Shown piece after piece: positions 2,836 to 46,625 of a DNA stretch of 64,000 nucleotides. Source of the stretch: Branchinecta lynchi (Eukaryota > Arthropoda > Branchiopoda > Anostraca > Branchinectidae); assembly GCA_023053575.1 (NCBI GenBank), contig JAKZAP010000005.1, forward strand, positions 2,294,001 to 2,358,000, in the 5' to 3' direction. Position numbers and translations under genes: made by a program. The notes beneath the pieces were generated by a model, which saw only the letters and a program-made list of their open reading frames with translations, was not told the origin of the DNA and searched no databases. Positions within the stretch are counted from its first letter, which is position 1. Each line of letters starts with the position of its first letter.

Positions 2836-5082
2836 GTACTATACAGCCTTTTATCATGCGTTGCAAGTTACTTTTTGGCCTGTTGTATAGTTAAGGTTAA
2901 CTTCAGACATCGAGGTTGATATCGGAAAATAACACAGAGACGGTCTTTGAGAGTAACCTATCCGAGCCGAAGGTGAGGTTCATATTTGTAAATAGCCATC
3001 GAGGTTGTAATTCCGATATCAAACGAGATGGAGGTCTGTTAATTGTTTTAACTTTTTTGAACAGAAATCATCTCTGGAGGCTGATATGACCTCATATCAT
3101 CCTCTCTGGAGGCTCATATGACTTATATCATCCTCGCATATCTACCGATAACTTTAATTATCGTAATATAACTGACGTGGGTCATATGAGGAGCATTAGA
3201 TACCTCTTTGAGAAAAGTTATAAAGGAATAATCTACTTCTTTGCTCAGTTCATATGGAGAGCCAGTGGTTGTATAGCAAAGCTTCTATTTACCGTTTCGT
3301 CGGTGAATCCTCGTTCGCCTTTTACTTATTCATCTTTTCTTAGTTAGAGTTTTCAGATAACTAGCACTGCAATAGTCGGCTTGCCATATACCGATCACTT
3401 TTCGGTCTGTCTGTCGGTCGGTCAGACCATTTATCTCAAGCTAGGGTACTACGAGAAGTGCTAGGATGATGAAACGTGGCAGGCATATTAGGGACCACAC
3501 CTAACTAACTTGGAAATAGTCCCTCCCCCGATTCAACCACCATGGGGGGAGTGGAGGGATAGGGAATCCGGAATATTACGTATTTTTAACTTTTGAACGG
3601 GGAATCGGATCTTAATGAAACTTGATATTTGGAAAGACCTCCTGTCTCAGGTGTCACACTTCAAGTCCGGAATGGATCCGGTGACTGTGGGGGAGTTGGA
3701 GGGGGAACTGGAAATCGTGTGTCATATTCAGAGTGGATGGATCGGGATGAAACTTGGGGGAAGAACAAGCACAAGCCCCAGATACATAATTGACAAGACC
3801 GGATCGGATCCGAGCACTTTGTGGGGAGTTGGAGGGAGGGTTCCGGAATTCCGGTGATCCCGACTTAAGATGCTTACACATGTGCTAGGACGATGAAACT
3901 TGGCAGGCATATTAGGGACCCGACGAAACTTTGGAAACAGTCACTTCCCCGATCCGACCTCCAAGGTTGAGTGGAGGGACTGAGGGAGGGGGAATCCGGA
4001 AAATTGATGTATTCATAGCTTTTGAACGTGGAATCACGTCTTGATCAAACTTGATATTTGGAAAGACCTCGTGTCTCAGGTGTCACACTTCAAGTCCGGA
4101 ATGGATCCGGTGACTGTGGGGGGAGCTGGAGGGGGAACCGGAAATCGTGTGACATGTTCAGAGTGGACGGATTGGGATGGAACTTAGTGGGAAGAACAAG
4201 CACAAGCCCTAGATACATAGTTGACAAGACCGGACCGGATCCAAGCACTGTAGGGGGAGTTGGAGGGAGGGTTCCGGAATTCCGGTGATCCCGACTTAAG
4301 ATGCTTACACATGTGCTAGGACGATGAAACTTCGCAGGCATATTAGGGACCCGACCAAACTAACTAACCAAATCCGACTACCGTGGGGAGAGTGGAGGGG
4401 GGAATCGGATATATTGACGTATTTATAACTTTTGAACCGGGAATCGGATCTCAATGCAACTTAGTATTCGGAAAGAGCTCGTGTCTCAGATGTCCCATTT
4501 CAAGTGCGGACAGGATCCGATCAATGTGGAGGAGTCGGGGGGGGGGAGATTTTGTGACACGCTTGGAATATAACGATTGGGATAAGACTTGGTGGGAAGA
4601 ACAAGCGTAAGCCCTAGATACATCAGTGATAGAACCGGGCCGGATTCGGTCACTCTGGTGGAGTTGGAGGGGGGTTTTGAATTCCAGTGATCGCAGGTGA
4701 AGGTAGATTCCATTATGATGATTCCAGAAGAAAAAAAATTACCAAACGATACAATCTCGTGATTTTCAAGGGTCCATCGTCATTCTTATTTACCAAGTCT
4801 TGCAAGTGCCATATGAGCTTCCAGCTCTTTTGAATTTTGTTTTTCAAGTTCTGAAAGAGATGGGCTTGATCTAGTTCTTTGGAATCGTTCTCACTTCTAA
4901 AAAAAACGACTTGTTGTTTTTCTTTTTGGACCACTTTAGCTTTACTGAGTATTTGGCTTTTATAATCAGTGATGAAGTATTACAACATAAATACTGTGTA
5001 GAAAGGAAGAGTGTTATTTTCTAAAGTTATAGCACGGATGCCTCTATATGATTCGCAGACAAGTTTTATTTTCTTCTTTCAG
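2836..5082 (+). other. ATP6V1A intron filled by a composite repeat
   Basis: GT-AG intron of 2.2 kb. A long repeat (3370-4832, reverse orientation) takes up most of it. Nothing is recognisable in 2836-3369 or 4833-5082. Confidence 0.8.
3370..4832 (-). repeat. Composite 'AAGTTTCATC' repeat, reverse copy
   Basis: Reverse-oriented relative of the arrays at 60605-64000. It consists of diverged blocks, each carrying ATGAAACTTGGCAGGCAT, AACAAGCACAAGCCC and GGAGTTGGAGGG-type segments; the blocks at ~3615-3920 and ~4040-4345 are clearly duplicates. It ends at 4809-4832 with CAAGTGCCATATGAGC, the inverse of the start of the copies at 60607 and 62216. Short open frames inside it are by-products of the G/C-rich repeats and are not genes. 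Confidence 0.7.
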
Positions 5083-33145: not shown

Positions 33146-33729
33146 AGTAGTATATAAAACCGGGTTCTGGCTCCCCCTCCCCCCAATTTCAAAACCCCAG
33201 TTTAACATCAATTTCTTAAACTTTAACATCCTTTTTACCAAATTACCCCCCTTTTTAAGAACATTTTTATTTTCTTACTTCCAAAATAAAGGATACAAGA
33301 AATGAGAATATTACCCTTTACTACATATAAAATACTACAATATACTACTACTTCTTTTTTTTACATTTTTCATTTTTTATTCAAATATTACTGAGTAAAC
33401 AGTTCTAAATCCACATATGTTTCTTTGTTCTTGTTTTCGCGTACAATAGGCTGCAAAACCAGATTTTTCTTTAAAAGTAATTCGTTAGCAATGGCATTAT
33501 ATTTCTGTGTTATAAACAAATCACAGGGTTTGTCATTATGATTAATAACTACAACCAACTTATCACCATATTTTGTCTTAGCAATTCTCATTTTAACGAT
33601 AGTATATTTCAATCCTAGAACTAGTTATTCTTTCCTGATTGTCTCATTGTATTTATTCATTCTGATTGTATTCAAGACTTCCTTTGTGGACTCCATTTAT
33701 TAGGGGATGATTTTATTAAATAAAAATCC
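33146..33729 (+). repeat. Polinton left terminal inverted repeat
   Basis: By eye it matches the reverse complement of 46042-46625 over all 584 positions with two substitutions: C/A near 33174 in the CCCCCTCCCCCC stretch, and the base creating a stop in the embedded gene near 33627. There are no length differences, even in homopolymers. Confidence 0.93.
33388..33696 (-). pseudogene. Left-TIR copy of the terminal gene, nonsense at codon 24
   Basis: Exact counterpart of the gene at 46075-46383, transcribed outward toward the left end. One base change makes codon 24 TAA (33625-33627). The remaining frame is open but lacks an ATG near the break. It keeps the AATAAATG start context. A fixed difference between otherwise identical repeats means the two ends have not been homogenised since the mutation. 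Confidence 0.85.
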
Positions 33730-34397
33730 CAATCGCTTTGAAACATCTGGTAATAGAAAACAACCACGTTTATCATATAAATGCGATAGATACAAACGCA
33801 GTACTGAGTTTGCATGATGATATGATGATTACCGATTTTGAACTTTATAAAATATTTTTGCAAAACCCCACACCCCCAGACTTTGAAAATTAAGAGGTGT
33901 GATGTTGGTACACCCCGATTGGTGTAGTGTTTGTGGTGATGTGGCCTTAGTCTGGGGGGCCCTGAACGGGGAACCCGCAAGTTTTTATTACCATCCCACT
34001 ATCGACAAACACAAACTGCGGTCAGTGGGATTCGAAGGTCTGAATGGTGATGAGTCAACGTTCGGCCGAGCGTTGAGCCACTACACCAAGGGTCCTTGTT
34101 CAATTCGCACAAGTTTCCGAGTTAAGATGAGATTGTGTTAGTCACGCCGGAGACTGTAATTACATCCCAAATTGACGGCGAGACCTTTGAATGACGCAGC
34201 TCATTAATGCGCGTATGAAATAAAGATCTGTTTGACAGTTAGGAAACAATATTCAGTATAGCAATAGACTATATGTTTGGTAATTTCTCTTGACTTTTTA
34301 TAGATTTATTACAATATTTATAACCATTCAAGCGAACCTGTTTCATGTATTTTTCGCGAGGAAAAAATCGAAAGGTTTTACGCATCTCTGTTTCTCT
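33730..34397. other. Polinton left non-coding interval
   Basis: Between the left inverted repeat and the membrane-protein gene. Contains a compositionally distinct, SINE-like insert (about 33890-34200); the rest is AT-rich. Confidence 0.6.
33890..34200 (-). mobile_element. Possible tRNA-derived SINE nested in the Polinton
   Basis: This stretch is visibly more GC-rich than the rest of the element. On the minus strand GGTGTAGTGGCTCAACGCTC (box A-like) is followed ~30 bases later by CCTTCGAATCCCAC (box B/T-arm-like), the spacing of an internal Pol III promoter. The tRNA-like body is not a clean cloverleaf. No clear target duplication found. Confidence 0.4.
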
Positions 34398-34688
34398 CTA
34401 AATTACCTCCTCAATTGTTAATTGTCCGCATTTTAGCATTGACAACAACTCAGTATAAAAATCATAAATAGTCCTAAATTCTGCTTTTCTATCAGCAATG
34501 CTTAATTGCTTTTCAATTATTTCGATGATAACAGCACCCAAACTTAAAGAAGCTAGCGGTAGCACTAGAAACGCAGACATTCCTGCTGCTGAAAAGAGGA
34601 ATTTGGATACAAGTAAGCTATTACTTATACGATTGTAGTACTTGTAACTGCGACGGTAAACATACATTTTCTTTTCTAATTCTTCCAT
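34398..34688 (-). CDS. Polinton small membrane protein, unknown function
   Basis: 96 residues, the only intact Polinton gene on the minus strand. A basic, tyrosine-rich N-terminus (residues ~6-22) precedes two likely membrane segments (about 25-43 and 46-59), then a charged helical C-terminus with KAEFRTIYDFYTELL. The start ATG lies in TATAAATGG. The two-helix layout loosely recalls SLATT-type small membrane proteins, but I cannot assign a family. It is divergent from polymerase B across a 300-bp interval with tandem repeats. Confidence 0.75.
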   Translation of the reverse strand: MEELEKKMYVYRRSYKYYNRISNSLLVSKFLFSAAGMSAFLVLPLASLSLGAVIIEIIEKQLSIADRKAEFRTIYDFYTELLSMLKCGQLTIEEVI

Positions 34689-34988
34689 TTATAATATAAT
34701 AAAATTGTTTCGAAAAATATTTCTAACAAAATAAAGAGTAGTAACCAAATGCCGATTTCGTCAAGAGTAGTAACCAAAAGCGGATTTTCGTTAAGAGTAG
34801 TAACCAAATGCCGATTTCGTCAAGAGTAGTAAAGAATAAAGGAAACCCGTGACTAGTAGTAAAGCATGTGCGAAACCCATAAGGGCGTCGGAAAATACAT
34901 AGTAAAGGATTTGGAAAACCAGTGCTTTTCTTTACGGCTGAGAAAACGCAGACTGGGAAATTTATTAATAAAAATGTTCCCCTATTAA
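34689..34988. promoter_or_regulatory. Divergent intergenic region with ~29-bp tandem repeats
   Basis: Between the divergently oriented membrane-protein and polymerase genes. Three ~29-30-bp units (34734-34824) carry AGAGTAGTAACCAAATGCCG / ATTTTCGT. AGAGTAG boxes start at 34736, 34765, 34795 and 34824, and looser AGTAGTAAAG boxes follow to about 34870. The core AGTAGTA also opens the terminal repeat. Location suggests promoter or replication control; function is inferred. Confidence 0.6.
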
Positions 34989-37625
34989 ATGATGAATACT
35001 GCAGAGGTTATTCAGCTTTGTAAAAAGGTTATATCAAACAACAAAGCGGTTATACAAAGATTATCGCTATACACATATAATGAACTGCGGACTTATGCGA
35101 AAATTAATAAAATCAAAACAAATGGAGCTAAGAAACATGAAATAACAAATAATATAATAAACCATCTTAATAAGTATATTTTGATAGCTGAAGATAAAAT
35201 TAAAATTGAACGCAGAAACGAAAGAACTCATAATAAGAACAGACCATCCGACTACAAACCAGAACCGAGATTACGAACCATTCTGGAAGATGAGATAAAA
35301 GAAAATAATATCACCATTACAAAACTAAAACAAGAATACAATGATAACAAAGAAAAAGAGACAAGCGAATTAAAGAAATTTCTGAAAAACAAGAACCTAT
35401 CAACTCGCGGAAACCGAGAAGAAGTACTAAAAAGAGTTGGAGAATACTATAATAATATTATTACCAAACATAAAGATTCCGTACAGAAAAATAGAGATAT
35501 CATAAGAGATCAAACAGAAAGACGTGATAACAGTAGACAGAAAGTAATCGATTTATCAACTCTCTTCATAAATAAGAAAAAAATCCAAGTAGAAAAATTA
35601 ATTCCTGATCATTTATTTAGAACTGAAGAAGAAGAACAACCTACTATCTCTAGGGAAAATGAAAATTTGTATACCATCAACGTTTCTATTGAAAGCAATG
35701 GAAGAGATGAACATACTCTTATTGCTTTTACTTTCGCCGATTTACAGCGGCGGATGAATGAACTTTATCAATATAGAGTTCAGTTCGTAACTCGTGTTAC
35801 ATTCTATAGACAGGAGAATGATGAAGAAGTAGTAGTGTATTACAACAGTACTTCTTGGATTTTAAATAAAAATAGCATTCTTACTCATAATCATTTGAAT
35901 GATAATAACAAGAGACTTAGTTCTTTAAGTAATACCCCTCGATCTGGGCTACAATTTAGTCGGTATGAAGGAATTGATTATAGGATGACACGAATAGAAT
36001 CTTACATGGGAGGAACGTTTAAAATACTGCCAGATTTCGTAAAAAATAAAAAAGCGTGCATAAATATAAAAAATTTAGATCAAAAATGCTTTCTTTGGTC
36101 CATCTTAGCACATTTATACCCCACCAAGGACAACGCTGAGAGAATTTCGAAATATAAACAATATGAGAACGAATTTGATTTCGAAGGGGTTACCAACTTC
36201 CCAATGGATACTAAAGATATACACAAATTTGAAAATAGATACAACATTAAGATTTGTTTATTTCAAATTGAAAAAGAGAAAATTATCAGAAGTCATATGC
36301 TAAAAAGTACAATCAATGGCAAAACAGCTAAACATGTTATTAATTTATTATATTTCGATAATCATTATGTACTGGTAAAGGATCTGAGCAGATTAGTTGG
36401 TAGTCAAATCTCTAAAAATAAAACAAAGACATACCTATGCACTTTTTGCGGAAGGCATTTTACAAAAGAAGAACACTTTGAAAAACATGAGAGTAAAAAT
36501 AATTGCGAAGATCCTGATATTATAATGCCTCCTGAAGGTTCAAGTATACAATATAAAAATATTGCAAAACAAATGAAAGTACCTTATTGCATAATAGCAG
36601 ACTTTGAGTCTTATAACGAAGAATACAATCAGGTAAACGGGAAGAAAACAATAAAAGTGGCCAAACAGAAACCATTTGCTTACGGGTTTCAGGTATGCTG
36701 TTCCTTTGATACAAACCAGAACAAATACTATGACTATTTCGGTGAAGACGCTGCAGAACATTTTGTTAAAACCGTTACAAAAGTATCCACAGAAATTGCA
36801 AACAAATATGAAAGCAGACAAAGAAACCATACTTATACCAATGCAGAAATTACCGAAAAATGGAAAAATCTATTGAATAAGACTTGTCACATCTGTACAA
36901 CTGAAATCACTGAAAATCCTCACTTTGATCACGACCACATGACAGGAGAAGATAGGGGATTTGCTCATGCTGAATGTAATATGAAATACAGGATTCCTAG
37001 GCATATCCCGGTAGTAATGCATAATTTATCAAAATATGATTCTCATTTATTTGTTAGAGAATTGATACCTGATAACGGAATTTTTGAAAGTGCAGAAAGT
37101 TTCATCTCATTCTCGAAATCAATAAGTATTACAAAAGCGGATACGGAAATAAAATATGAGATGCGGTTTATAGATTCAATTAGATTTATGGCTTCATCTT
37201 TAGACAAACTATCAGCAAATTTAGCAACATGTGATTGCAAAGTACCTTGTAATCATCTAAGACAGAATTTCAAGTACACATGTAACAGCTTCAAAAATGA
37301 CGATGAATTCAAAGAAATAATTAAAAAAGGGGTGTATCCCTATGAATTCGTAGATAGTTTCGATAAAATGAAATGTACAAAGTTACCACCAATAGAAAGC
37401 TTTTATTCTAGGTTGACGGGGAAAGGTATTGACAAAAGTGATTATAAAAGAGCGGTATCTATATGGAAGCAATTTAACTGTGAAACTTTACTTGATTATA
37501 CCAAGTTGTACCTAAAAAGTGATGTTTTAATATTGTCGGATGTTGTAGAGAATTTCAGGAACGTTTGTATACATAATTATGATCTGGATCCACTTCATTA
37601 CTTCTCAGCTCCAGGATTAACATGA
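34989..37625 (+). CDS. POLB: Polinton protein-primed DNA polymerase B, N-terminal part
   Basis: 878 residues up to an in-frame TGA (37623-37625). Order seen: SAP-like helix pairs (about 25-60 and 123-155), a charged linker, an OTU-like/NKD..CFLWSILA-type segment (about 362-470), a C2H2 finger CTFCGRHF..H (484-505), Exo I CIIADFESY (about 534-542), an HNH-like Cys/His cluster CHIC...DHDHMTG (633-663), Exo II MHNLSKYDSH (677-686), and Exo III YLKSDVLILSDV (near 841-852). These belong to the 3'-5' exonuclease half of viral family B polymerases that initiate on a terminal protein. The start lies in ATTAAATGATG. The same frame continues beyond the TGA into 37656-39065. Confidence 0.93.
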   Translation: MMNTAEVIQLCKKVISNNKAVIQRLSLYTYNELRTYAKINKIKTNGAKKHEITNNIINHLNKYILIAEDKIKIERRNERTHNKNRPSDYKPEPRLRTILEDEIKENNITITKLKQEYNDNKEKETSELKKFLKNKNLSTRGNREEVLKRVGEYYNNIITKHKDSVQKNRDIIRDQTERRDNSRQKVIDLSTLFINKKKIQVEKLIPDHLFRTEEEEQPTISRENENLYTINVSIESNGRDEHTLIAFTFADLQRRMNELYQYRVQFVTRVTFYRQENDEEVVVYYNSTSWILNKNSILTHNHLNDNNKRLSSLSNTPRSGLQFSRYEGIDYRMTRIESYMGGTFKILPDFVKNKKACINIKNLDQKCFLWSILAHLYPTKDNAERISKYKQYENEFDFEGVTNFPMDTKDIHKFENRYNIKICLFQIEKEKIIRSHMLKSTINGKTAKHVINLLYFDNHYVLVKDLSRLVGSQISKNKTKTYLCTFCGRHFTKEEHFEKHESKNNCEDPDIIMPPEGSSIQYKNIAKQMKVPYCIIADFESYNEEYNQVNGKKTIKVAKQKPFAYGFQVCCSFDTNQNKYYDYFGEDAAEHFVKTVTKVSTEIANKYESRQRNHTYTNAEITEKWKNLLNKTCHICTTEITENPHFDHDHMTGEDRGFAHAECNMKYRIPRHIPVVMHNLSKYDSHLFVRELIPDNGIFESAESFISFSKSISITKADTEIKYEMRFIDSIRFMASSLDKLSANLATCDCKVPCNHLRQNFKYTCNSFKNDDEFKEIIKKGVYPYEFVDSFDKMKCTKLPPIESFYSRLTGKGIDKSDYKRAVSIWKQFNCETLLDYTKLYLKSDVLILSDVVENFRNVCIHNYDLDPLHYFSAPGLT

Positions 37626-37655
37626 GATGCTTTCCTAAAGCATTCGAAAGTAGAC

Positions 37656-39065
37656 TTGCCGTTATTCTCAAAGGAAGACATGTATACTTTTATAGAAAAA
37701 GGAATAAGAGGTGGTGTATCCCAATGTATAAAAAGATACGCAAAAGCAAATAATAAATATACAAGTGATTATAATAAGAATAAGCCATCTAATTATTTAG
37801 TGTATTTGGATAAAAATAATTTATATGGGTGGGCAATGTCACAAGATTTACCAGCGAATGATTTCCAATTCATTTCCATACCGGATGATTTGAAAGAAAG
37901 GAATGAATATGAATCAATCGAGTATTACAACCATCTGAAAAGTCATATCAAGTCGGTGATTACGATTAAGTCGGTGAGACAAGATGTGGGTGCTATATAT
38001 GAGGTAGACTTAGAATATCCAAAAGAACTACACGAATTACACAAGGATTTACCATTAGCACCCGAACACTTTAACGGTAAGCTATGTACCACAGTATTAG
38101 ATAAAACCAACTATGTAGTTCACCACAGGAATCTAGAATTCTATTTAAAAAAAGGTTTGATATTGAAAAGAGTACACAGAATACTAGGATTCACTGAAAG
38201 TGCTTACTTAAACGGATATATAGACCACAACACAGCACTTAGAACTAAAGGTACAAATGATTTTGAAAAGGATTTCTTTAAGCTTATGAATAATGCTTGC
38301 TTTGGAAAAACTATGGAAAACGTAAGGAAGCGAGCGGATATGGAAATAATAACGGATGATGCAACAAGAGAAAAAATAATAAAGAAATCCAACTTTAAAT
38401 CTGAAATAATATTCAGTGAAAACTTTTCAGTAGCAAGAATGTCAAAGGAAAAGATAAAATTAGACAAACCAATGTATATCGGCTTTGCTGTATTGGAACT
38501 ATCCAAGTTATTGATGTATGAATTCCATTATGATTATATGAAGCCTAAATATGGAGATAAAATTGATTTGTGTTATATGGACACTGATTCTTTCATATAT
38601 GATATTAGAACTGAAGATTTTTATCAAGATATCAAACAGGATTTGAATGAGAGGTTTGATACATCTGATTATGCGAAAGATAATCCATATGGGTTTCCTA
38701 GTGTAAATAAGAAAGTGATAGGAATGATGAAAGATGAATTAGGTGGACAGGTTATGACAGAGTTTGTTGGATTACGATCAAAGGTATATGCTTATTTAAA
38801 GGACAACCAAGACCCTTCAAAAGCTAGCAAAAAACTGAAAGGAATAAAAACCAATATCGTTAAAGATAAAATTACGATTCAAAACTATAAGGATGTACTG
38901 TTTGGTAAAACGGAAAACCTTTCTATAACCCAGTATAACTTAAGATCATACAAGCACAATATGTTTCTAGAAGAACAGAATAAAAAAGCGTTAGATCCTA
39001 AGGATGATAAAAGGATAGTAACAAGCGATAAAATACACACTTTACCTTTAGGTTATAAACATTAA
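37656..39065 (+). CDS. POLB: Polinton DNA polymerase B, C-terminal (palm/thumb) part
   Basis: Same reading frame as the preceding ORF; the codons between 37626 and 37655 are open. This is the rest of one ~1360-codon gene and not a separate protein (its first codon is TTG). Motifs, counted from 37656: VYLDKNNLYGWAMS (motif A, ~49-62), FKLMNNACFGKTMENV (motif B, ~208-223), LCYMDTDSF (motif C with DTDS, ~305-313), and FVGLRSKVYAY near the C-terminus. All polymerase residues I can judge are intact. It ends at TAA before the 21-bp repeat array. Confidence 0.93.
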   Translation: MPLFSKEDMYTFIEKGIRGGVSQCIKRYAKANNKYTSDYNKNKPSNYLVYLDKNNLYGWAMSQDLPANDFQFISIPDDLKERNEYESIEYYNHLKSHIKSVITIKSVRQDVGAIYEVDLEYPKELHELHKDLPLAPEHFNGKLCTTVLDKTNYVVHHRNLEFYLKKGLILKRVHRILGFTESAYLNGYIDHNTALRTKGTNDFEKDFFKLMNNACFGKTMENVRKRADMEIITDDATREKIIKKSNFKSEIIFSENFSVARMSKEKIKLDKPMYIGFAVLELSKLLMYEFHYDYMKPKYGDKIDLCYMDTDSFIYDIRTEDFYQDIKQDLNERFDTSDYAKDNPYGFPSVNKKVIGMMKDELGGQVMTEFVGLRSKVYAYLKDNQDPSKASKKLKGIKTNIVKDKITIQNYKDVLFGKTENLSITQYNLRSYKHNMFLEEQNKKALDPKDDKRIVTSDKIHTLPLGYKH

Positions 39066-39235
39066 ATTCAAGTACCTACTTAAAAAAAATCAAGTACCTA
39101 CTTAAAAAAATCAAGTACCTACTTAAAAACTTCAAGTACCTACTTAAAAAATTCAAGTACCTACTTAAAAACTTCAAGTACCTACTTAATAAATCCAAGT
39201 ATATACATAAAATACTCAAGTAAATCTTATAATGA
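39066..39235 (+). repeat. 21-bp palindromic tandem array between POLB and ATPase
   Basis: Eight CAAGTA starts at 39069, 39091, 39112, 39133, 39154, 39175, 39196 and 39217, i.e. a 21-bp period after a first 22-bp step. The first six units contain the palindrome AAGTACCTACTT followed by an A-run; the last two are degenerate. 21 bp is two helical turns, so the palindromes face the same side of the DNA. It may be a terminator, protein-binding array or replication element. Confidence 0.85.
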
Positions 39236-39253
39236 AAAATTCTTCCTAAATAA

Positions 39254-39931
39254 ATGAATGAAAAGGCTCCAATCAAAGTCTATGATTTTAGTGAAAAGAA
39301 TAACTATCAGAACAAACACGACCTTGCACCTCAGTGGCCATTTAGACTCTTAATTTGTGGTAGTTCTGGAACAGGGAAAACTAACCTTCTTTTGAATTTA
39401 ATTTATGAATATCTTTGTTTCAACCGAATATACTTGTATGCAAAAGATCTTGAAGAAGATAAATATCAAGACCTTCTAACCAATTTAACCACTTTGGAGT
39501 CACAATGCAAATCGAAAGTCTTAACAGTAAGTAACAATCTTGATGATATTGTCGATGTTGACGACTTAGACCCTGAATACCAAAACTTGATTATCTTTGA
39601 CGATTTTGTCACTGAAAAAGACCAGAAGAAAATAGAAGATTTATTCATAAGAGGAAGAAAGAAAAATGCCTCAATTATTTACTTGTCTCAAAGCTATCAT
39701 AAAACGCCAAAGGTGGTAAGGCTCCAGTGCAATTATTTTGCATTCTTTCAGTGTTCTAATCCAAAAGAAGTAAAATTAATAAGACAAAGCCATGTATCCA
39801 GTATAGACGATGAAAAATTTCTGAAACAATTCGAGACTGCAACCAAGGGCTACGGTTTTTTCTTCATAGATTTAAAAATAAAAGATAAAACCCTTAAGTA
39901 CAGGAAAAACTTTGAAAAATTTACCGGATAA
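39254..39931 (+). CDS. ATP: Polinton genome-packaging ATPase (FtsK-HerA/A32-like)
   Basis: 225 residues. Walker A LLICGSSGTGKTNLLL at about 33-48, Walker B YQNLIIFDDF at about 115-124, then RGRKKNASIIYLSQSYHKTP with a sensor-like Gln, the pattern of the A32-like packaging ATPases of Polintons, virophages and large DNA viruses. It would pump the genome into capsids. Start context AATAAATG. It sits between POLB and a fibre-like gene, all on the same strand. Confidence 0.95.
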   Translation: MNEKAPIKVYDFSEKNNYQNKHDLAPQWPFRLLICGSSGTGKTNLLLNLIYEYLCFNRIYLYAKDLEEDKYQDLLTNLTTLESQCKSKVLTVSNNLDDIVDVDDLDPEYQNLIIFDDFVTEKDQKKIEDLFIRGRKKNASIIYLSQSYHKTPKVVRLQCNYFAFFQCSNPKEVKLIRQSHVSSIDDEKFLKQFETATKGYGFFFIDLKIKDKTLKYRKNFEKFTG

Positions 39932-39947
39932 TTTATTTCTATAATAA

Positions 39948-40571
39948 ATGAATAAATTTGGTAGTGTTGGAAAAAAGGTTAGTAACGAATCGAATGAAAA
40001 GAGAGTTACTGATGACAACGGTAATATTAACCTACAAGGTAAGAGAATTATTATGTTAGGGGATGCGAAAGCTGACCAGGACGCTATTAGTTTCAGATCC
40101 ATGACTATTATTCTGAATCAATTTAAAGAAGAAATTACCGCACAACAAGTGGGGATAAATCAGTATTTTAGCGAAGATATCAACAGATTAACTGCGGTAC
40201 ATGATTCTCCTAAAAATTTATTGGTAAGGATTAATGATAAAGGGTTATTTGTAAAAGAAATAATTCGAGTTAATGAGAAAGAAATTGATGCTGAGAACAA
40301 ATTGATAACAAATGTTCAAAACCCTAGAAACAAAAATGATGCTGTTAATTTAGCAACGTTAACTATGAATCTTTTAGATTATGACAAAAAGCTTCTTGGG
40401 CAACACACCCATAACGGTATAATTGAAGGAAAGATTGCTGGTCAAAAAACTCGTATCGATAATATTGAAAGAGCAGTAGTAAATATTTTAAAAAGGCTTC
40501 TAGAGCTAGAGCTAAAACCTGTTGACAAACCATTCGTTACCAGAATAGAAAAAATGATGGCTGGTAAATAA
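39948..40571 (+). CDS. Polinton fibre/appendage-like protein (tentative)
   Basis: 207 residues. Two copies of a motif resembling the neck of phage tail fibres: NINLQGKRIIMLGDAKADQD (~27-46) and ENKLITNVQNPRNKNDAVN (~116-134), patterned on GK.I.NL..P....DA. A heptad-rich C-terminal stretch (IDNIERAVVNILKRLLELEL) could trimerise. No signal peptide. Start context AATAAATG. Family membership is inferred from motif shape only; a structural virion or attachment role is plausible and unproven. Confidence 0.6.
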   Translation: MNKFGSVGKKVSNESNEKRVTDDNGNINLQGKRIIMLGDAKADQDAISFRSMTIILNQFKEEITAQQVGINQYFSEDINRLTAVHDSPKNLLVRINDKGLFVKEIIRVNEKEIDAENKLITNVQNPRNKNDAVNLATLTMNLLDYDKKLLGQHTHNGIIEGKIAGQKTRIDNIERAVVNILKRLLELELKPVDKPFVTRIEKMMAGK

Positions 40572-40601
40572 ATTTTATAAGATAAATTTATTCCCTAATA
40601 A

Positions 40602-41252
40602 ATGGTTGAAACAATGGAGTATACAGTTTATTTGTCAAAGCTTCAGAAAGGAAAGCTGAAGAAATGCTTTGGTGCTAAACAAAAATGTCAGATACGTGTT
40701 AGTCATAGTAGACAAAATGAAAGAGAACCAGTTAAGTTACTTTTAAGTAAACGACAAATTGATAAAATTGAAACCTGTAAAATGAATAATAAGGGTTGTG
40801 ATATTGATGTATCATACAAGCAGATGAAAGAAGCGATTCAAAAGGGTGGATTACTTCCATTTTTAATACCGCTAGCAATTACCCTTGGTAAGGCAGCTTT
40901 AACAAGTGGTGCTGCTGCTTTGGGTACATTCGCTGGTAAGAAAATTATGGATAAAATGACCAACACAGGTGGAGCTCTAAAACTTCCTGGAACACAAAAA
41001 GTTGTGGGTAATGGGTTACGTGGGAAGGAAAGCGATGATGTCAACATAGGTGGGGCGCTTACACTTCCTGGAACACAAAAAGTTGTCGGTCATGGGGTAC
41101 GTGGAAGGCCTAGGAAGGAAAAAAACGATGATGTCAACATAGGTGGAGCGCTTACACTCCCTGGAACACAAAAAGTTGTCGGTAATGGGGTACGTGGAAG
41201 GCCTAGGAAGTCAAAAAACGGGGACATCAAAAAAGAAGCAAAAGTAAAGTAG
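40602..41252 (+). CDS. Polinton core/membrane-active protein with triple C-terminal repeat
   Basis: 216 residues. Basic N-terminus with paired Lys-rich segments (VYLSKLQKGKLKKCF; LLLSKRQIDKIE), a hydrophobic Gly/Ala/Leu block GGLLPFLIPLAITLGKAALT (~86-105), then three repeats of GGALTLPGTQKVVGNGVRG, two ending in GRPRK, an AT-hook-like motif. Such a region precedes the adenain-like protease in other Polintons, often in one polypeptide. Here the protease lies in the -1 frame; A-AAA-AAC at 41213-41219 is in phase and the -1 frame is open from 41207 onward. Start context AATAAATG. Confidence 0.75.
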   Translation: MVETMEYTVYLSKLQKGKLKKCFGAKQKCQIRVSHSRQNEREPVKLLLSKRQIDKIETCKMNNKGCDIDVSYKQMKEAIQKGGLLPFLIPLAITLGKAALTSGAAALGTFAGKKIMDKMTNTGGALKLPGTQKVVGNGLRGKESDDVNIGGALTLPGTQKVVGHGVRGRPRKEKNDDVNIGGALTLPGTQKVVGNGVRGRPRKSKNGDIKKEAKVK

Positions 41253-41275
41253 GACCTCTAACCAATTTTGATATT

Positions 41276-41620
41276 ATGGATGCATTAGGGGATATACCAC
41301 AGTTTAGAGGTGTGTTCTCTATAGATACGCTACCCAAACATATAAATAGTATAGAATGCGGTGTCATTAATTATGATAAACTCGGAATGCCTGGAACTCA
41401 CTGGGTTGCGTATTGTAATCTACCTGAATCCCCCTATGTCGAATTTTTCGATTCTTTCGGTATTCCTCCAGGAAAAGAAATAGTTAAATATCTAAAAACT
41501 TTAAAGAAAAAAATAGCTTATGAAAATCTTGCTGTTCAAAATATAGATGAATTAAACTGTGGACTTCACTGTATTTCCTACATTAAGCGCAAAATGAAGT
41601 TGGTAGCTTTTCGTTTATAA
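41276..41620 (+). CDS. PRO: Polinton adenain-like cysteine protease
   Basis: 114 residues from the first ATG, a normal core length for Polinton proteases. FRGVFSIDTLP opens the fold; catalytic His in GTHWVAY, acidic residue in EFFDSFG, oxyanion Gln in VQNID and nucleophile Cys in LNCGLHC are all present. It matures capsid or core proteins in related viruses. It lacks the TAAATG start context of its neighbours and its frame is open upstream to 41207 inside the preceding ORF, so it is probably made as a frameshift fusion, or the true start was lost. The ATG is provisional. Confidence 0.88.
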   Translation: MDALGDIPQFRGVFSIDTLPKHINSIECGVINYDKLGMPGTHWVAYCNLPESPYVEFFDSFGIPPGKEIVKYLKTLKKKIAYENLAVQNIDELNCGLHCISYIKRKMKLVAFRL

Positions 41621-41637
41621 AAATTGTTTTCTAATAA

Positions 41638-41805
41638 ATGGAGATTTATTGTATGAAATGTAAAAAGAGCACTGACACTGAATCAATGTTTAAGGCAGTG
41701 TCACAAAAAAATAATGTTCCAATGCTGAAAGGGAATTGTGTTATTTGCGGATCGAGGAAAAATCGCTTTTTAAAAAAAACCTCAACGCAGAAACAGATAT
41801 TTTAA
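41638..41805 (+). CDS. Polinton zinc-ribbon protein
   Basis: 55 codons, short but clear: MEIYCMKCKK and CVICGSRKNRF give two CXXC pairs typical of the small zinc ribbons found in Polintons. Start context CTAATAAATGG. Its 3' third overlaps the integrase frame (-1) by about 70 bases. T-TTA-AAA at 41769-41775 and A-AAA-AAA at 41772-41778 are both phased for -1 slippage. It may act as a DNA-binding N-terminal module of the integrase when shifted. Confidence 0.75.
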   Translation: MEIYCMKCKKSTDTESMFKAVSQKNNVPMLKGNCVICGSRKNRFLKKTSTQKQIF

Positions 41806-42707
41806 AGACGTATTATTCTAATTATTCAGGTGTGGATGATATTTACAGAAAATTAAAAGAAAATGGTGTTAAGGTTTCCAAGGATAAAATAAAAAATGTA
41901 TTGCAAAATGAGAATGTGTATACGTTACACAAACCTTCCTATCATAACTTTGAAAGGAGGCGAGTGTATGTTCACTATGTTGATGAGCAATGGCAAGCTG
42001 ATTTAGTTGACATGCAGAAATATAAAAAAGAAAATAATAAAACAAATTACATTTTAACTGTTATTGATTGCTTTAGTAAATATGCTTGGTGTATCCCTCT
42101 GAAAGACAAAACGGGTGCTGAAATAATAAAAGCATTCAGTGTTATATTTAAAGAAAGAATTCCTAAGAAACTACAAACTGATAAAGGTAAGGAATTTGTA
42201 ATGAGAAATGTTCAATCTTTTTTGAAAAATAACGATATACACTGGTTTGCATCTGAAAGCGAATTGAAAGCGCAAATTGTAGAACGATTCAACAGAACGC
42301 TAAAAGAAAAGTTATGGAAATATTTCACTCACAATAACACTACTAATTGGATTGATATTTTACCTTTATTTGTGAGTAATTATAATAACTCGTACCACCG
42401 TTCAATACAAATGAAACCAGTTGATGCTAGTAAAAAGGTTAATCAGAAAAAGGTTTTTAGTGCTCTGTTTCCTCCAGTAGATGACTACAAAATCACAGGA
42501 AACGTCAAAGTAGGGGATTTAGTCAGAATTAAAAAAGAAAAAAGTATTTTCGATAAAGGATATTTACCTAATTATACGGATGAAGTATTTCAGATAGCAA
42601 CCATCAGACCTACCATTCCCATTACTTATGAAATATCTGACAAAAGTGGGGAATTAATTCAAGGAGGGTTTTATGAAAAAGAACTTTCAAAATTTATTAT
42701 GAAATAA
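41736..42707 (+). CDS. INT: Polinton retroviral-type integrase (rve)
   Basis: About 300 residues of catalytic region. DEQWQADLVDM (first Asp), LQTDKGKEF (second Asp) and ELKAQIVERFNRTLKEK (Glu) make the D,D-E site that joins element ends to host DNA with 6-bp staggered cuts. The C-terminal GNVKVGDLVRI... segment is an SH3/chromodomain-like fold in relatives. No ATG occurs in frame before the catalytic core (the first Met is in LVDMQKY), and there is no TAAATG box, so translation must come from the overlapping zinc-ribbon ORF by -1 shift, from a non-ATG start, or not at all. Confidence 0.93.
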   Translation: MCYLRIEEKSLFKKNLNAETDILKTYYSNYSGVDDIYRKLKENGVKVSKDKIKNVLQNENVYTLHKPSYHNFERRRVYVHYVDEQWQADLVDMQKYKKENNKTNYILTVIDCFSKYAWCIPLKDKTGAEIIKAFSVIFKERIPKKLQTDKGKEFVMRNVQSFLKNNDIHWFASESELKAQIVERFNRTLKEKLWKYFTHNNTTNWIDILPLFVSNYNNSYHRSIQMKPVDASKKVNQKKVFSALFPPVDDYKITGNVKVGDLVRIKKEKSIFDKGYLPNYTDEVFQIATIRPTIPITYEISDKSGELIQGGFYEKELSKFIMK

Positions 42708-42723
42708 AATTACTTGTATATAA

Positions 42724-43548
42724 ATGGATTCAAGACGCTTGAGTGATATGTTATCGGATATAGTGAAGAACAGAGAAGTTCAGAGAAGAAAGGTTCAACA
42801 AAATGAGATGGAGAAGGCAGGATTTCGGGAATATGCTTCAGAATTAAACGCTCCAGTTATTATAGCACAAAAAGAAAACACTAAAGATACCATCAAAAAA
42901 TTACAAGAGAACGCTGAAACGATAATTAATAAACTACAGGAAGGTGATAATAATTCAAGAAGACGGTTTCTCAGATTAGGTGATACATTTAAAACAGCTT
43001 TACAGACCACTACTTCAGAGGAAGTGAGTCGAGCACCCGCTTTAGAACCTTCTCCCGATTTAGGACCACTATCCGTTGATATGAATAAAGATATTACCCA
43101 AGAGTTGTTAAATCAGATTAATTTAAAACATGTAGAATCGCGGGGTGGCACTGATACTTATTTTAAAATGCCTACGTATTACATTAAGCATCATACGGAT
43201 ATAGATGAGGCTCTAGAACGTTTGACATCTCTAAGTCAAAGTTATGGCGGGAAAAAAGGTAAAGGTTACTCTAGCTATGATGAAATCCTTGAATTTATAA
43301 GAGAATACAAGGAGAGGTTAACCAGCATTCGAACTAATTCCCCATTTTTAGTTCAACAAAAAGGAACTGGAATATTTATGAACTGTGATGAAATGATTTC
43401 AAAATTATACACTTTGATAGGTAGCAGAGTAAACGGAAATACATCTGACGAGGTGAGAAATGAAGCTATTGATATTTTGGATTCGTTAATGCGAAATAAA
43501 TTTCTTACGAAGAGATATTACAATTCAATATATAAAAAATATTTCTAA
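42724..43548 (+). CDS. Polinton conserved coiled protein, unknown function
   Basis: 274 residues, charged and helical. Heptad-like stretch NTKDTIKKLQENAETIINKL (~52-71), a Pro-rich linker near 105-118, and a C-terminal domain with GKKGKGYSSYDEILEFI and IDILDSLMRNKFLTKRYYNS. No enzymatic motif. Start context TATAAATGG. Placed between integrase and minor capsid as in other Polintons; perhaps structural. Confidence 0.7.
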   Translation: MDSRRLSDMLSDIVKNREVQRRKVQQNEMEKAGFREYASELNAPVIIAQKENTKDTIKKLQENAETIINKLQEGDNNSRRRFLRLGDTFKTALQTTTSEEVSRAPALEPSPDLGPLSVDMNKDITQELLNQINLKHVESRGGTDTYFKMPTYYIKHHTDIDEALERLTSLSQSYGGKKGKGYSSYDEILEFIREYKERLTSIRTNSPFLVQQKGTGIFMNCDEMISKLYTLIGSRVNGNTSDEVRNEAIDILDSLMRNKFLTKRYYNSIYKKYF

Positions 43549-43551
43549 TAA

Positions 43552-44259
43552 ATGGTGTTGTTAAACATTGAAGGTAATGAAAGTATCATTGATATAACAT
43601 TTAGTCAACCAATCGAATTGAATCGTAATTGGGATTATGAAATAGGTTTGAATCAGTGTACTTTGTGGTATTCGTGGCATAATATAAGTGATAAATTTGG
43701 AAATAATACATTTCAATACAGGAAAGATGAAGAATGGATGAATGTAACTATTCCTAATGGGATGTATAACGATGATTGTTTGAATTATTTTTTGTGTCAG
43801 TATTTTGATACCCCAAAAGACAAATGTCCTATTGTAATTTCATCCAATCCAGCATCTATGAGATTTGTCATACTATTACAAGAAAAATATGTGTTTAGAT
43901 TTAATAGTGACTTGTGTCAGATTTTAGGATTTGAGAAGGATAGTGAGATATCTAAGAAAATCAATGAAGGTACAAAGCTTCCGAATATAACAAGAAGCGT
44001 TGATAAAATTCAAATTCACTGCTCTCTTGTAAACAGTTCTATCGTAAACAAAAGTAAATCAGATGTCATTTGGACATTTGTTCCGAATACAGAACCGGGT
44101 TGTCAAATTGTTGAGAATCCTAGACAATTAATCTACCTTCCTATTAATACAAAAGACTTTATTTACTCCTTGAGAATGACAATTACTGATCAGTTGGGAA
44201 GACCTATCGATTTGAATGGTGATAACGTTGGATACGTACTGCATTTAAGAAAAGCTTAA
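43552..44259 (+). CDS. mCP: Polinton minor capsid (penton-like, single jelly-roll) protein
   Basis: 235 residues. Beta-rich throughout, with LNRNWDYEIGLNQCTLWYSW near the N-terminus and the C-terminal MTITDQLGRPIDLNG...VLHLRK signature I associate with Polinton minor capsid proteins, which occupy vertices. Starts 4 bp after the previous stop in CTAATAAATGG. Intact. Assignment rests on motif recognition and position next to the major capsid gene. Confidence 0.82.
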   Translation: MVLLNIEGNESIIDITFSQPIELNRNWDYEIGLNQCTLWYSWHNISDKFGNNTFQYRKDEEWMNVTIPNGMYNDDCLNYFLCQYFDTPKDKCPIVISSNPASMRFVILLQEKYVFRFNSDLCQILGFEKDSEISKKINEGTKLPNITRSVDKIQIHCSLVNSSIVNKSKSDVIWTFVPNTEPGCQIVENPRQLIYLPINTKDFIYSLRMTITDQLGRPIDLNGDNVGYVLHLRKA

Positions 44260-44291
44260 AGGATTAGTGAAATAAAATTATTTACCTATAA

Positions 44292-44648
44292 ATGTTGATT
44301 AATAATAAGCGATTACTTTATAAAAAGCAGTATGGAAGTGGAATCGGTAGTGTATTCAAAAACATTGTTAATTCCCAGTTATTTCAAACGTCAGCAAAAC
44401 AAATAAAAGATGGGGCTATGTCAATGTATAATAATATTATTAAACCGAGATTTGAGTTGTTGAAAAACAGAGCAATAGAATATGGGAAAGATCTGATCAA
44501 TGTCAACAAGAAGGAACTCATCGATGTAATTGGAAACAAAAAATCGATGAAGGATCTTATCGGTACAAATAAAAGGATTTTAAATCAAAGAAGTCAGGAC
44601 TTGATCAAAACGTTAATGACTGGTAATGGATTAAAGATTCTGAAATAA
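44292..44648 (+). CDS. Polinton pVI-like small virion protein (tentative)
   Basis: 118 residues, basic and helical, with an early QYGSGIGSVFKNIVNSQLF segment and a C-terminal LMTGNGLK. MTGNG fits the adenain-type cleavage pattern (M/I/L)XGX-G, so it may be a substrate of the element's protease. Start context CTATAAATG, between minor and major capsid genes. Similarity to adenoviral pVI is by size, position and processing site only. Confidence 0.6.
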   Translation: MLINNKRLLYKKQYGSGIGSVFKNIVNSQLFQTSAKQIKDGAMSMYNNIIKPRFELLKNRAIEYGKDLINVNKKELIDVIGNKKSMKDLIGTNKRILNQRSQDLIKTLMTGNGLKILK

Positions 44649-44678
44649 GTTTTATTTAATAATTTCTTTCTTATATAA

Positions 44679-46037
44679 ATGGCAGTAAATAAAGTTATCA
44701 GTCCGCAATGGAACATTTTTGATGAACCGCTTGTGGATGATACAGTGGTTAAATATGAATTTAAAGAAATTCGAGAAACAGATGTGAATGTATCTAATAA
44801 ATCAGAGTTTGAATTCGTAACGAAGAAATTAGATTCCTGGTTTTATCCAAGTGAAAGTTATCTTGATGTTAGTGTAAGAATAGTGAAAGAAAATGGAGAT
44901 AATATAGCTGCAACCGATATTGCTACTTTGACGAACAATGGATTTAATTTATTCAGTACCGCTGAATATGTAATAAACGATGAATCGGTTGAAAAAATTA
45001 ATCATGTTGGTATTACAACTACCGTTACAAAGTTGATTGAATACTCTGATGATTATTCTAGAAGTGCAGCAAGAAATCATTTCTGGTATAAGGATTATAA
45101 TCAAGGAAAAGAAATTAATCCTGTTATTGCTTCGTTTACTACAGGGGCTGCAGGGGCTGCAGCAGGGGGTGGAACAGTCAGTTTGAGAAATAATAATAAT
45201 TATAATAAAGGATTTGAAAAAAGATATAACAGAACAAAAAGCAGTAAATTAGTAAATATGTATTTACCATTATCAGAATTGTTTGGATTTCTGAAAGGAA
45301 ACAAACGATTCTTCAGAGGTGCATCGCATAAATTATTTCTAAGAAGAAATGATGATAACAACATGATTATAAGAAATGGAAATACTAATTTCAAAGTAGT
45401 AATCGAGTATTTATCCTGGAAGATCCCTATTGTAGCTCCTAGTATCGAAATGATGAGTGAATTAGAAAAGGGTCTTGCTAAGGATAAAAAGCATAATCTG
45501 ATGTGGGAAGCATGTAATACTTATAAAAGCGATGTTAGTCAAAATAAGGAACACACTTGGAAAGTTATATCTGAGAGAAACAATCCAACAAAAGTAGTTG
45601 TGATGCTACAGAAAAATGAAAAGCATAACAATCAATTAATGAATAATATGGTGTTTGATCATATGAATTTAACAGACATAGAACTTAGAATTAATGGGGA
45701 TAAATATCCCGAAGAACCACTTAAATGTGATTTTAGCGATGACAAATGTAAATACTCAAATCTTTACAATAGGTTCATACATTTGGGTTATAAACAATTA
45801 GCATTTGATACTGGTAGTGTTGTTAGTATAGAAGAATTTAAAGAAGTATATCCACTATTCTGTTTCGATGTTTCCAAACACGAGTCAAATATTTATAATG
45901 GAACAACTGCTGATATTGAAATAAGTTTAACGTTGAAAGATAATCAACCCGTACCATATAATGTTTACTGTGTTATATATTATGAAAGAAAAGCTACATT
46001 AGGTATTATTAACAAAAATATGTATGTGAGTTTGTGA
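44679..46037 (+). CDS. MCP: Polinton major capsid protein (double jelly-roll)
   Basis: 452 residues, the expected size for the Polinton hexon-like capsid protein. Recognisable segments: DSWFYPSESYLDVSVRI in the first jelly roll, GFNLFSTAEYVIND, VNMYLPLSELFGFL, HKLFLRRNDDNN, and late VYCVIYYERK. A Gly/Ala-rich loop (TTGAAGAAAGGGTVSL) interrupts the first half. Frame intact from ATG in TATAAATGG to TGA, last gene before the right repeat. Confidence 0.92.
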   Translation: MAVNKVISPQWNIFDEPLVDDTVVKYEFKEIRETDVNVSNKSEFEFVTKKLDSWFYPSESYLDVSVRIVKENGDNIAATDIATLTNNGFNLFSTAEYVINDESVEKINHVGITTTVTKLIEYSDDYSRSAARNHFWYKDYNQGKEINPVIASFTTGAAGAAAGGGTVSLRNNNNYNKGFEKRYNRTKSSKLVNMYLPLSELFGFLKGNKRFFRGASHKLFLRRNDDNNMIIRNGNTNFKVVIEYLSWKIPIVAPSIEMMSELEKGLAKDKKHNLMWEACNTYKSDVSQNKEHTWKVISERNNPTKVVVMLQKNEKHNNQLMNNMVFDHMNLTDIELRINGDKYPEEPLKCDFSDDKCKYSNLYNRFIHLGYKQLAFDTGSVVSIEEFKEVYPLFCFDVSKHESNIYNGTTADIEISLTLKDNQPVPYNVYCVIYYERKATLGIINKNMYVSL

Positions 46038-46041
46038 GCCT

Positions 46042-46625
46042 GGATTTTTATTTAATAAAATCATCCCCTAATAAATGGAGTCCACAAAGGAAGTCTTGAA
46101 TACAATCAGAATGAATAAATACAATGAGACAATCAGGAAAGAAGAACTAGTTCTAGGATTGAAATATACTATCGTTAAAATGAGAATTGCTAAGACAAAA
46201 TATGGTGATAAGTTGGTTGTAGTTATTAATCATAATGACAAACCCTGTGATTTGTTTATAACACAGAAATATAATGCCATTGCTAACGAATTACTTTTAA
46301 AGAAAAATCTGGTTTTGCAGCCTATTGTACGCGAAAACAAGAACAAAGAAACATATGTGGATTTAGAACTGTTTACTCAGTAATATTTGAATAAAAAATG
46401 AAAAATGTAAAAAAAAGAAGTAGTAGTATATTGTAGTATTTTATATGTAGTAAAGGGTAATATTCTCATTTCTTGTATCCTTTATTTTGGAAGTAAGAAA
46501 ATAAAAATGTTCTTAAAAAGGGGGGTAATTTGGTAAAAAGGATGTTAAAGTTTAAGAAATTGATGTTAAACTGGGGTTTTGAAATTGGGGGGAGGGTGAG
46601 CCAGAACCCGGTTTTATATACTACT
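46042..46625 (-). repeat. Polinton right terminal inverted repeat
   Basis: Inverse of 33146-33729 with two substitutions. Contains the intact terminal gene (46075-46383) and a ~240-bp AT-rich tail to the end CTACTACT-type terminus (...TATATACTACT). Confidence 0.93.
46075..46383 (+). CDS. TIR-encoded small protein, possibly OB-fold
   Basis: 102 residues, lying entirely in the right inverted repeat and read outward. LKYTIVKMRIAKTKYGDKL followed by alternating hydrophobic strands and CDLFITQKYNAI suggests a small beta-barrel of OB type, as in single-strand DNA-binding proteins. Such a role would suit a protein encoded next to replicating ends, but this is inference. Start context CTAATAAATGG. 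The left-end copy is broken at codon 24. Confidence 0.7.
   Translation: MESTKEVLNTIRMNKYNETIRKEELVLGLKYTIVKMRIAKTKYGDKLVVVINHNDKPCDLFITQKYNAIANELLLKKNLVLQPIVRENKNKETYVDLELFTQ

Follow-up and report, generated by a model that had tools for sequence, protein, structure and literature searches.

Predicted -1 ribosomal frameshifting from a core-like gene into an adenain-type protease in a Polinton, with a probable second site before the integrase

The adenain-type cysteine protease of a complete-looking Polinton at 33146-46625 of the window (the whole stretch of 64,000 nt that was analysed) is encoded in the -1 frame of the preceding core-like gene and has no AUG at its beginning. We put at roughly 80% the probability that the core-like protein is extended at its C-terminus by this protease, through programmed -1 ribosomal frameshifting at an A_AAA_AAC heptamer at 41213-41219. 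Put forward in the original prediction, this explanation was the best supported of those considered, on the strength of the reading frames, the phased heptamer, the missing AUG, the genome copies, an independent viral contig (L151) and purifying selection; of the mechanisms considered, ribosomal slippage at A_AAA_AAC is the simplest to draw on every one of these features.

The core/protease junction and its Polinton

The 13.5-kb element is bounded by terminal inverted repeats (TIRs) of 584 nt (33146-33729 and 46042-46625) which are 100% identical, and TCCGAC on both of its outer sides forms a 6-bp target site duplication, as in Polintons. Its plus-strand genes include an rve integrase (PF00665), an A32-like ATPase (PF04665) and a DJR capsid protein (PF21738), all matched in Pfam, and with the adenain they make up the Polinton gene set of integrase, packaging ATPase, protease and major capsid protein. 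The adenain was assigned by its fold, its Pfam C5 score being 15.8 bits against a cut-off of 21.3. An in-frame stop at 37623-37625 divides a long frame into two pieces (34989-37625 and 37626-39065). Searched separately, neither piece matched the PolB family; the second carries a DTDS motif, and the two probably encode a polymerase-like protein; the window's copy looks defective at 37623-37625. The genome (575.7 Mb in 216 contigs) yielded at least 150 scored places per search, drawn from 860-887 first-look candidates, and was found to hold well over a hundred copies of the element. The identity of the TIRs over 584 nt, together with these many similar copies, indicates a recent burst.

The core-like ORF (40602-41252, plus strand, 216 aa) begins at a TAATAAATG start box and encodes a hydrophobic GGLLPFLIPLA segment followed by tandem repeats with RGRPRK motifs. 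Its AT_hook score was just below the cut-off, and the label "core-like" rests on position and composition. The placement of core and protease in frames 0 and -1 was confirmed from the sequence, and the -1 frame of the plus strand is indeed open from 41207 through the protease, to its stop at 41620. The overlap of the two frames (41207-41252) is 46 nt long, rather than the 44 nt given originally. Within it, A_AAA_AAC stands in the X_XXY_YYZ phase that had been claimed (codons TCA AAA AAC). The first ATG of the protease frame is found only at 41276, and no near-cognate codon precedes the ATT at 41273. The junction thus has the arrangement expected of programmed frameshifting, with overlapping ORFs of which the downstream one lies in the -1 frame without a start of its own, and a phased, evolutionarily conserved heptamer inside the overlap.

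A second in-phase A_AAA_AAC is present at 41120-41126, in the preceding core tandem repeat, where -1 reading stops at the second codon after it. The heptamer may therefore have arisen together with the protein repeat, and at the earlier site slipped ribosomes would soon run into a stop, which argues against selection for shifting alone.

The protease also lacks the TAAATG box, as had been stated, and so does the integrase; in the ten other plus-strand gene starts checked (34989-46075) this box lies exactly at the start codon in every case. Across the element, TAA precedes only 12 of 302 plus-strand ATGs. Of 12 genes checked, protease and integrase are thus the pair that has no box, and it is this same pair that is placed in the -1 frame of an upstream neighbour. 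An AATAAAA-like stretch is often seen some 20 nt ahead of the box, an arrangement that resembles poxvirus late promoters.

The sequence upstream of ATG 41276 belongs to the protease, as judged from related proteins, an alignment and a structural model. The N-terminal PLTNFDI is encoded at 41255-41275, ahead of that ATG, and relatives 42-51% identical to the protease carry an L(T/S)N-type motif at the same position. Relatives were taken as the best 120 of 6364 matches, in a search limited to proteins of 75-240 aa and thus excluding long fusions. A strict pattern of the motif was matched in 92 of these 120, and many of the remaining ones display variants (LTDxDI or LNELDI, for example). Across an alignment of 64 rows, residue L18 of PLTN hardly varies. 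All of the best 120 except P0003 and P0008 (that is, 118) extend upstream of the ATG point, with starts as the databases called them. An AlphaFold2 model of the -1 frame had a mean pLDDT of 89.8 (96 at residues 21-30, 58 at residues 1-10), and the predicted helix at residues 20-27 spans the ATG, which corresponds to residue 24, so that a start there would cut the helix. The best fold match of the model was the adenovirus 2 protease (1nln, E 1.2e-7).

In order to gauge chance expectation, the lysine-rich peptide of the overlap was re-encoded with random synonymous codons: some in-phase slippery heptamer appeared in 35% of the versions and a strong one in 14%. Only 4.5% of the versions kept the -1 frame open over the whole overlap, and a heptamer was present in 64% of these. 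The presence of A_AAA_AAC in the window's overlap is by itself not striking; it is the features taken together, conserved as they are in the copies and in an independent contig, that go beyond chance. A strong enrichment of the heptamer in the window was considered and rejected, with 32 occurrences of AAAAAAC on both strands against 41 expected.

Downstream of the heptamer, folding was no better than in shuffled sequences, and a convincing stimulatory structure was not found there. A weak candidate for an H-type pseudoknot on the plus strand (41226-41291) starts 6 nt after the heptamer, with stems S1 (41226-41232/41266-41272) and S2 (41255-41261/41285-41291). It was equalled by 15 of 100 shuffles and is not conserved: 47 of 148 copies disrupt one S2 pair, and 11 of 147 disrupt one S1 pair. 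At the junction of L151 the 70-nt fold was equalled by 7 of 100 shuffles and the best pseudoknot by 48; at the integrase junction described below, the corresponding figures were 58 and 22 of 100. The efficiency of shifting may be low, or the stimulator may be of another kind.

Conservation in copies and relatives

The junction was compared across the best 150 loci of the 860-887 candidates, ranked by protease similarity and comprising 148 distinct segments; this ranking favours intact proteases. The -1 spacing across 41195-41260 is kept in 143 of the 148 listed copies. The net length change over this interval is none in 139, a multiple of three in 4 and frame-changing in 5. The heptamer reads AAAAAAC in 144, AAAAAAT in one and otherwise in three. 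A full-length protease was found in 147 of these protease-ranked copies. The core frame runs from ATG to the usual stop in 102, reaches the usual stop without an ATG in 13, stops elsewhere in 15, was not recognised by the test in 15 and runs into the protease in one frame in 3. Both ORFs were complete, and the heptamer present, in 98 of the 148. Mean minor-allele frequency among the listed copies was 0.0137 in the 46-nt overlap, compared with 0.02-0.06 in surrounding stretches; the heptamer is conserved among the copies, though not exceptionally, 15% of 7-nt windows being less variable.

The three one-frame copies (L018, L046 and L049) bear on the proviso, made in the original prediction, that core and protease might share a frame in other copies. 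L018 and L049 arose by changes at the junction that differ between them, and L046 by a change further upstream; L046 is counted among the 143 with kept -1 spacing although it is in one frame. Their nearest neighbours, 0.4-2.8% away, are not fused, and the three copies therefore look derived. A one-frame ancestral state was rejected on the same ground, judged by distance. In a separate list ranked by core similarity (best 150, read from the result table), the core frame measures 168-247 aa in 148 of 150 places and is longer than 300 aa in the other 2. An older copy, L121, which differs from the window by about 18% across the junction and the protease, retains both heptamer and core stop, and its two frames are still in the -1 relation; in its relative L045 both heptamer and spacing are lost. 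The rival that had been offered at the outset, the loss of one base in the A-run of the window's copy or a homopolymer error there, is contradicted by the kept -1 spacing, the core-ranked list, L121 and L151, and the 148 distinct copies rule out a sequencing or assembly error at the junction.

Scans of viral contigs yielded two distinct contigs, L151 (recovered again as L152 and L156) and L155 (again as L157). The first is IMG/VR contig IMGVR_UViG_3300046323_000841, whose genes include those for a DUF5679 protein, for an A32-like ATPase and for an adenain-like protease. The protease is 35% identical to the query P0098 and 31% to that of the window, and its Pfam matches are below cut-off. A core-like ORF at 4363-4986, named by position and a Gly/Leu-rich segment without Pfam support, ends in ACT AAA AAA AAA AAC CCA GAG TTT TAA. 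The protease lies in its -1 frame, open from 4965, with the first ATG only at 5082. The overlap of 22 nt contains an in-phase A_AAA_AAC at 4968-4974; in-phase slippery heptamers occur at 0.8% per codon in the window's element, and about 5% would thus be expected in the 7-codon overlap of L151. In the viral-contig and genome-contig scans together, L151 was the only independent DNA example of the -1 core/protease arrangement, and a tblastn search of a phage collection with P0098 returned no relatives.

Other relatives are organised differently. Most of the best 120 listed relatives (of 6364) look like stand-alone proteases, judging by length and start, and do not bear out the earlier statement that other Polintons commonly have this protease at the C-terminal end of one polypeptide. 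L153, from the genome-contig scan, has a stand-alone protease as well; this protease is of Polinton type, although the contig has been assigned to a Balneolales bacterium MAG, where it looks like a contaminant derived from a eukaryotic virus or element. The sole in-frame fusion seen with its DNA, on the Polinton-like virus contig L155 (1907-2920), places the adenain-like protease behind a different N-terminal region, which looks lipase-like. Database ORFs from other sources, considered as proteins alone, agree with separate frames: P0009 and P0010 are each a core with an end of its own, and P0003 is a protease called from an inner ATG. In P0004 and P0036 the called start is far upstream and KK then Q/R precedes the motif, a hint from protein letters only that these too may be -1 arrangements.

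Selection was assessed by comparing N:S among changes found in one copy with N:S among those shared by at least two, in 148 copies for protease and core and, for the integrase, in the window together with 47 loci; changes were unpolarised, and blocks of less than 75% identity were masked. For the protease, N:S was 84:37 in singletons and 45:46 in shared changes (neutral 3.0; Fisher p = 0.004). The core gave 154:56 and 81:85 respectively (neutral 2.8; p = 1e-6), and the integrase gave 180:67 and 56:89 (neutral 3.2; p = 4e-11). The contrast was not significant for the Zn-ribbon ORF alone or for its overlap with the integrase, and none was visible in the core/protease overlap. Uncorrected dN/dS of the protease against the window was 0.20-0.64 in the 7 copies tested; for the older L121 it was 0.39 and for L045 0.32. 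The shared substitutions reveal purifying selection on the protease. The contrasts indicate that the multiplying lineages kept protease and integrase intact, though neither has an AUG at its beginning.

A second -1 junction, before the integrase

Immediately downstream, a DUF5679 Zn-ribbon ORF (41638-41805, plus strand, 55 aa; PF18930, E 6.4e-11) starts at a TAATAAATG box. The rve integrase (PF00665, E 2.2e-14) occupies its -1 frame on the same strand at 41715-42707, without a start box; this frame is open from 41715, and its first ATG is at 42012. The overlap of 91 nt contains two candidate slippery heptamers in phase with the Zn-ribbon ORF, T_TTA_AAA (41769-41775) and A_AAA_AAA (41772-41778), together spanning 41769-41778 of the plus strand. 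This pattern, which matches that of the protease, was missing from the original prediction.

Of 50 loci long enough for a tally, 3 were dropped for want of an integrase match and 47 were used, L003 and L034 being the same place. The integrase is in the -1 frame in 39, in a common frame in 4 (only two of which, L014 and L036, run open through) and in the remaining frame in 4. Among the 39, an in-phase heptamer is present in 32, and an integrase-frame ATG is absent from the overlap in 37. A slippery heptamer in this overlap is likely by chance (75%), and the near-cognate codons of the integrase frame there make non-AUG initiation of the integrase possible. On the sequence evidence, the integrase is probably reached by a -1 shift from the Zn-ribbon ORF at T_TTA_AAA/A_AAA_AAA.

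Competing explanations, mechanism and significance

In the proposed mechanism, most ribosomes would end at the core stop (41250-41252), while a minority would slip back one base at A_AAA_AAC and continue into the protease. The product would be a core-protease fusion of about 340 residues, made at a fixed sub-stoichiometric ratio; through its core portion the fusion would bring the protease to the particle, and the protease would act there during maturation. The integrase would probably be reached likewise from the Zn-ribbon ORF at T_TTA_AAA/A_AAA_AAA. What we infer here is the slippage of the ribosome itself, its efficiency, the packaging and the ratio. According to PMC8097293, no Maverick particles have been observed.

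Slippage could instead occur during transcription, RNA polymerase adding or dropping A's so that some mRNAs carry both ORFs in one frame. Both junctions are A-runs (of 6 and 8 A's), and such a mechanism needs much the same DNA features as ribosomal slippage. Six A's are, however, short for slippage by cellular polymerases, a second run of six A's at 41229-41234 would be expected to slip too, and the phased X_XXY_YYZ at both sites and in L151 is required specifically by the ribosomal mechanism; we regard transcriptional slippage as improbable, if the strongest of the competitors. Slightly less probable still is that a frame break in an ancestral copy was passively inherited by the burst, the protease being dispensable or provided in trans. 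The copies differ little from one another (median pairwise difference 5.6%) and non-autonomous copies can amplify, but this account is at odds with the purifying selection in shared protease and integrase changes, with the full-length protease in 147 of 148 listed copies (protease-ranked as they are) and with the occurrence of the same arrangement in the older L121 and, independently, in L151.

Initiation at ATG 41276, through reinitiation after the core stop or from a promoter of its own, seems more doubtful again: the ATG follows the core stop by 23 nt and is the called start of database ORF P0003, yet such a start would remove the conserved PLTNFDI and half of helix 1, the protease has no start box, and the scheme fails for L151, where the first ATG lies inside FRGVFMR. 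Splicing of the core and protease frames is the least credible of all: although the host is presumably a eukaryote, as genome size and element type suggest, these frames overlap by 46 nt in the window and by 22 nt in L151, an A-rich sequence with no pyrimidine tract precedes the protease part, and intact vertebrate Mavericks are described in PMC8097293 with intronless ORFs.

Ribosomal frameshifting at A_AAA_AAC has close parallels. This heptamer is among the most shifty on mammalian ribosomes, according to PMC5009743, and is given in PMC3835772 as the site of MMTV, BLV and HTLV-I. As in the gag-pro junctions of these retroviruses, a protease without a start would be reached by a -1 shift at A_AAA_AAC near the end of a structural ORF. 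The Polinton enzyme is an adenain-type cysteine protease and not an aspartic one, however, and the element is DNA virus-like; the listed retroviruses have predicted or solved pseudoknots, whereas the Polinton junction has a weak candidate. Closer in kind, a preprint (PMC11071296) suggests, from KnotInFrame predictions, -1 frameshifts in the C-terminus of adintovirus Penton and a potential Hexon-Adenain fusion, "Hexain", in a related virus group with the same protease type. The upstream gene is Penton or Hexon in that suggestion and a core-like gene in the Polinton described here, which differs also in its second site before the integrase and in the conservation over many copies. Polinton/Maverick elements with a separate protease gene, such as the vertebrate Mavericks drawn in PMC8097293 and L153, have in common with the window's element the gene set (A32-like ATPase, adenain, rve integrase and DJR capsid protein) and the TIRs. 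Their protease is an ORF of its own, whereas here no start codon precedes the conserved N-terminus. In a literature search that mostly covered papers outside subscription, neither a core-protease nor a Zn-ribbon-integrase shift was encountered for Polintons.

The broader proposition, to which we lean with some reservation, is that protease and integrase are each reached by their own -1 shift from a small structural or Zn-ribbon ORF, in convergence with retroviral gag-pro-pol, and that the core-protease shift is old enough for a far-diverged virus to have it too. If so, proteases and integrases of this kind can be expected to appear in automated annotation as truncated, lacking a start or broken. 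If the reading is correct, this Polinton would dose its maturation protease, and perhaps its integrase, by a translational switch of the retroviral type, which would fit the assembly of particles with a fixed ratio of enzyme to core.
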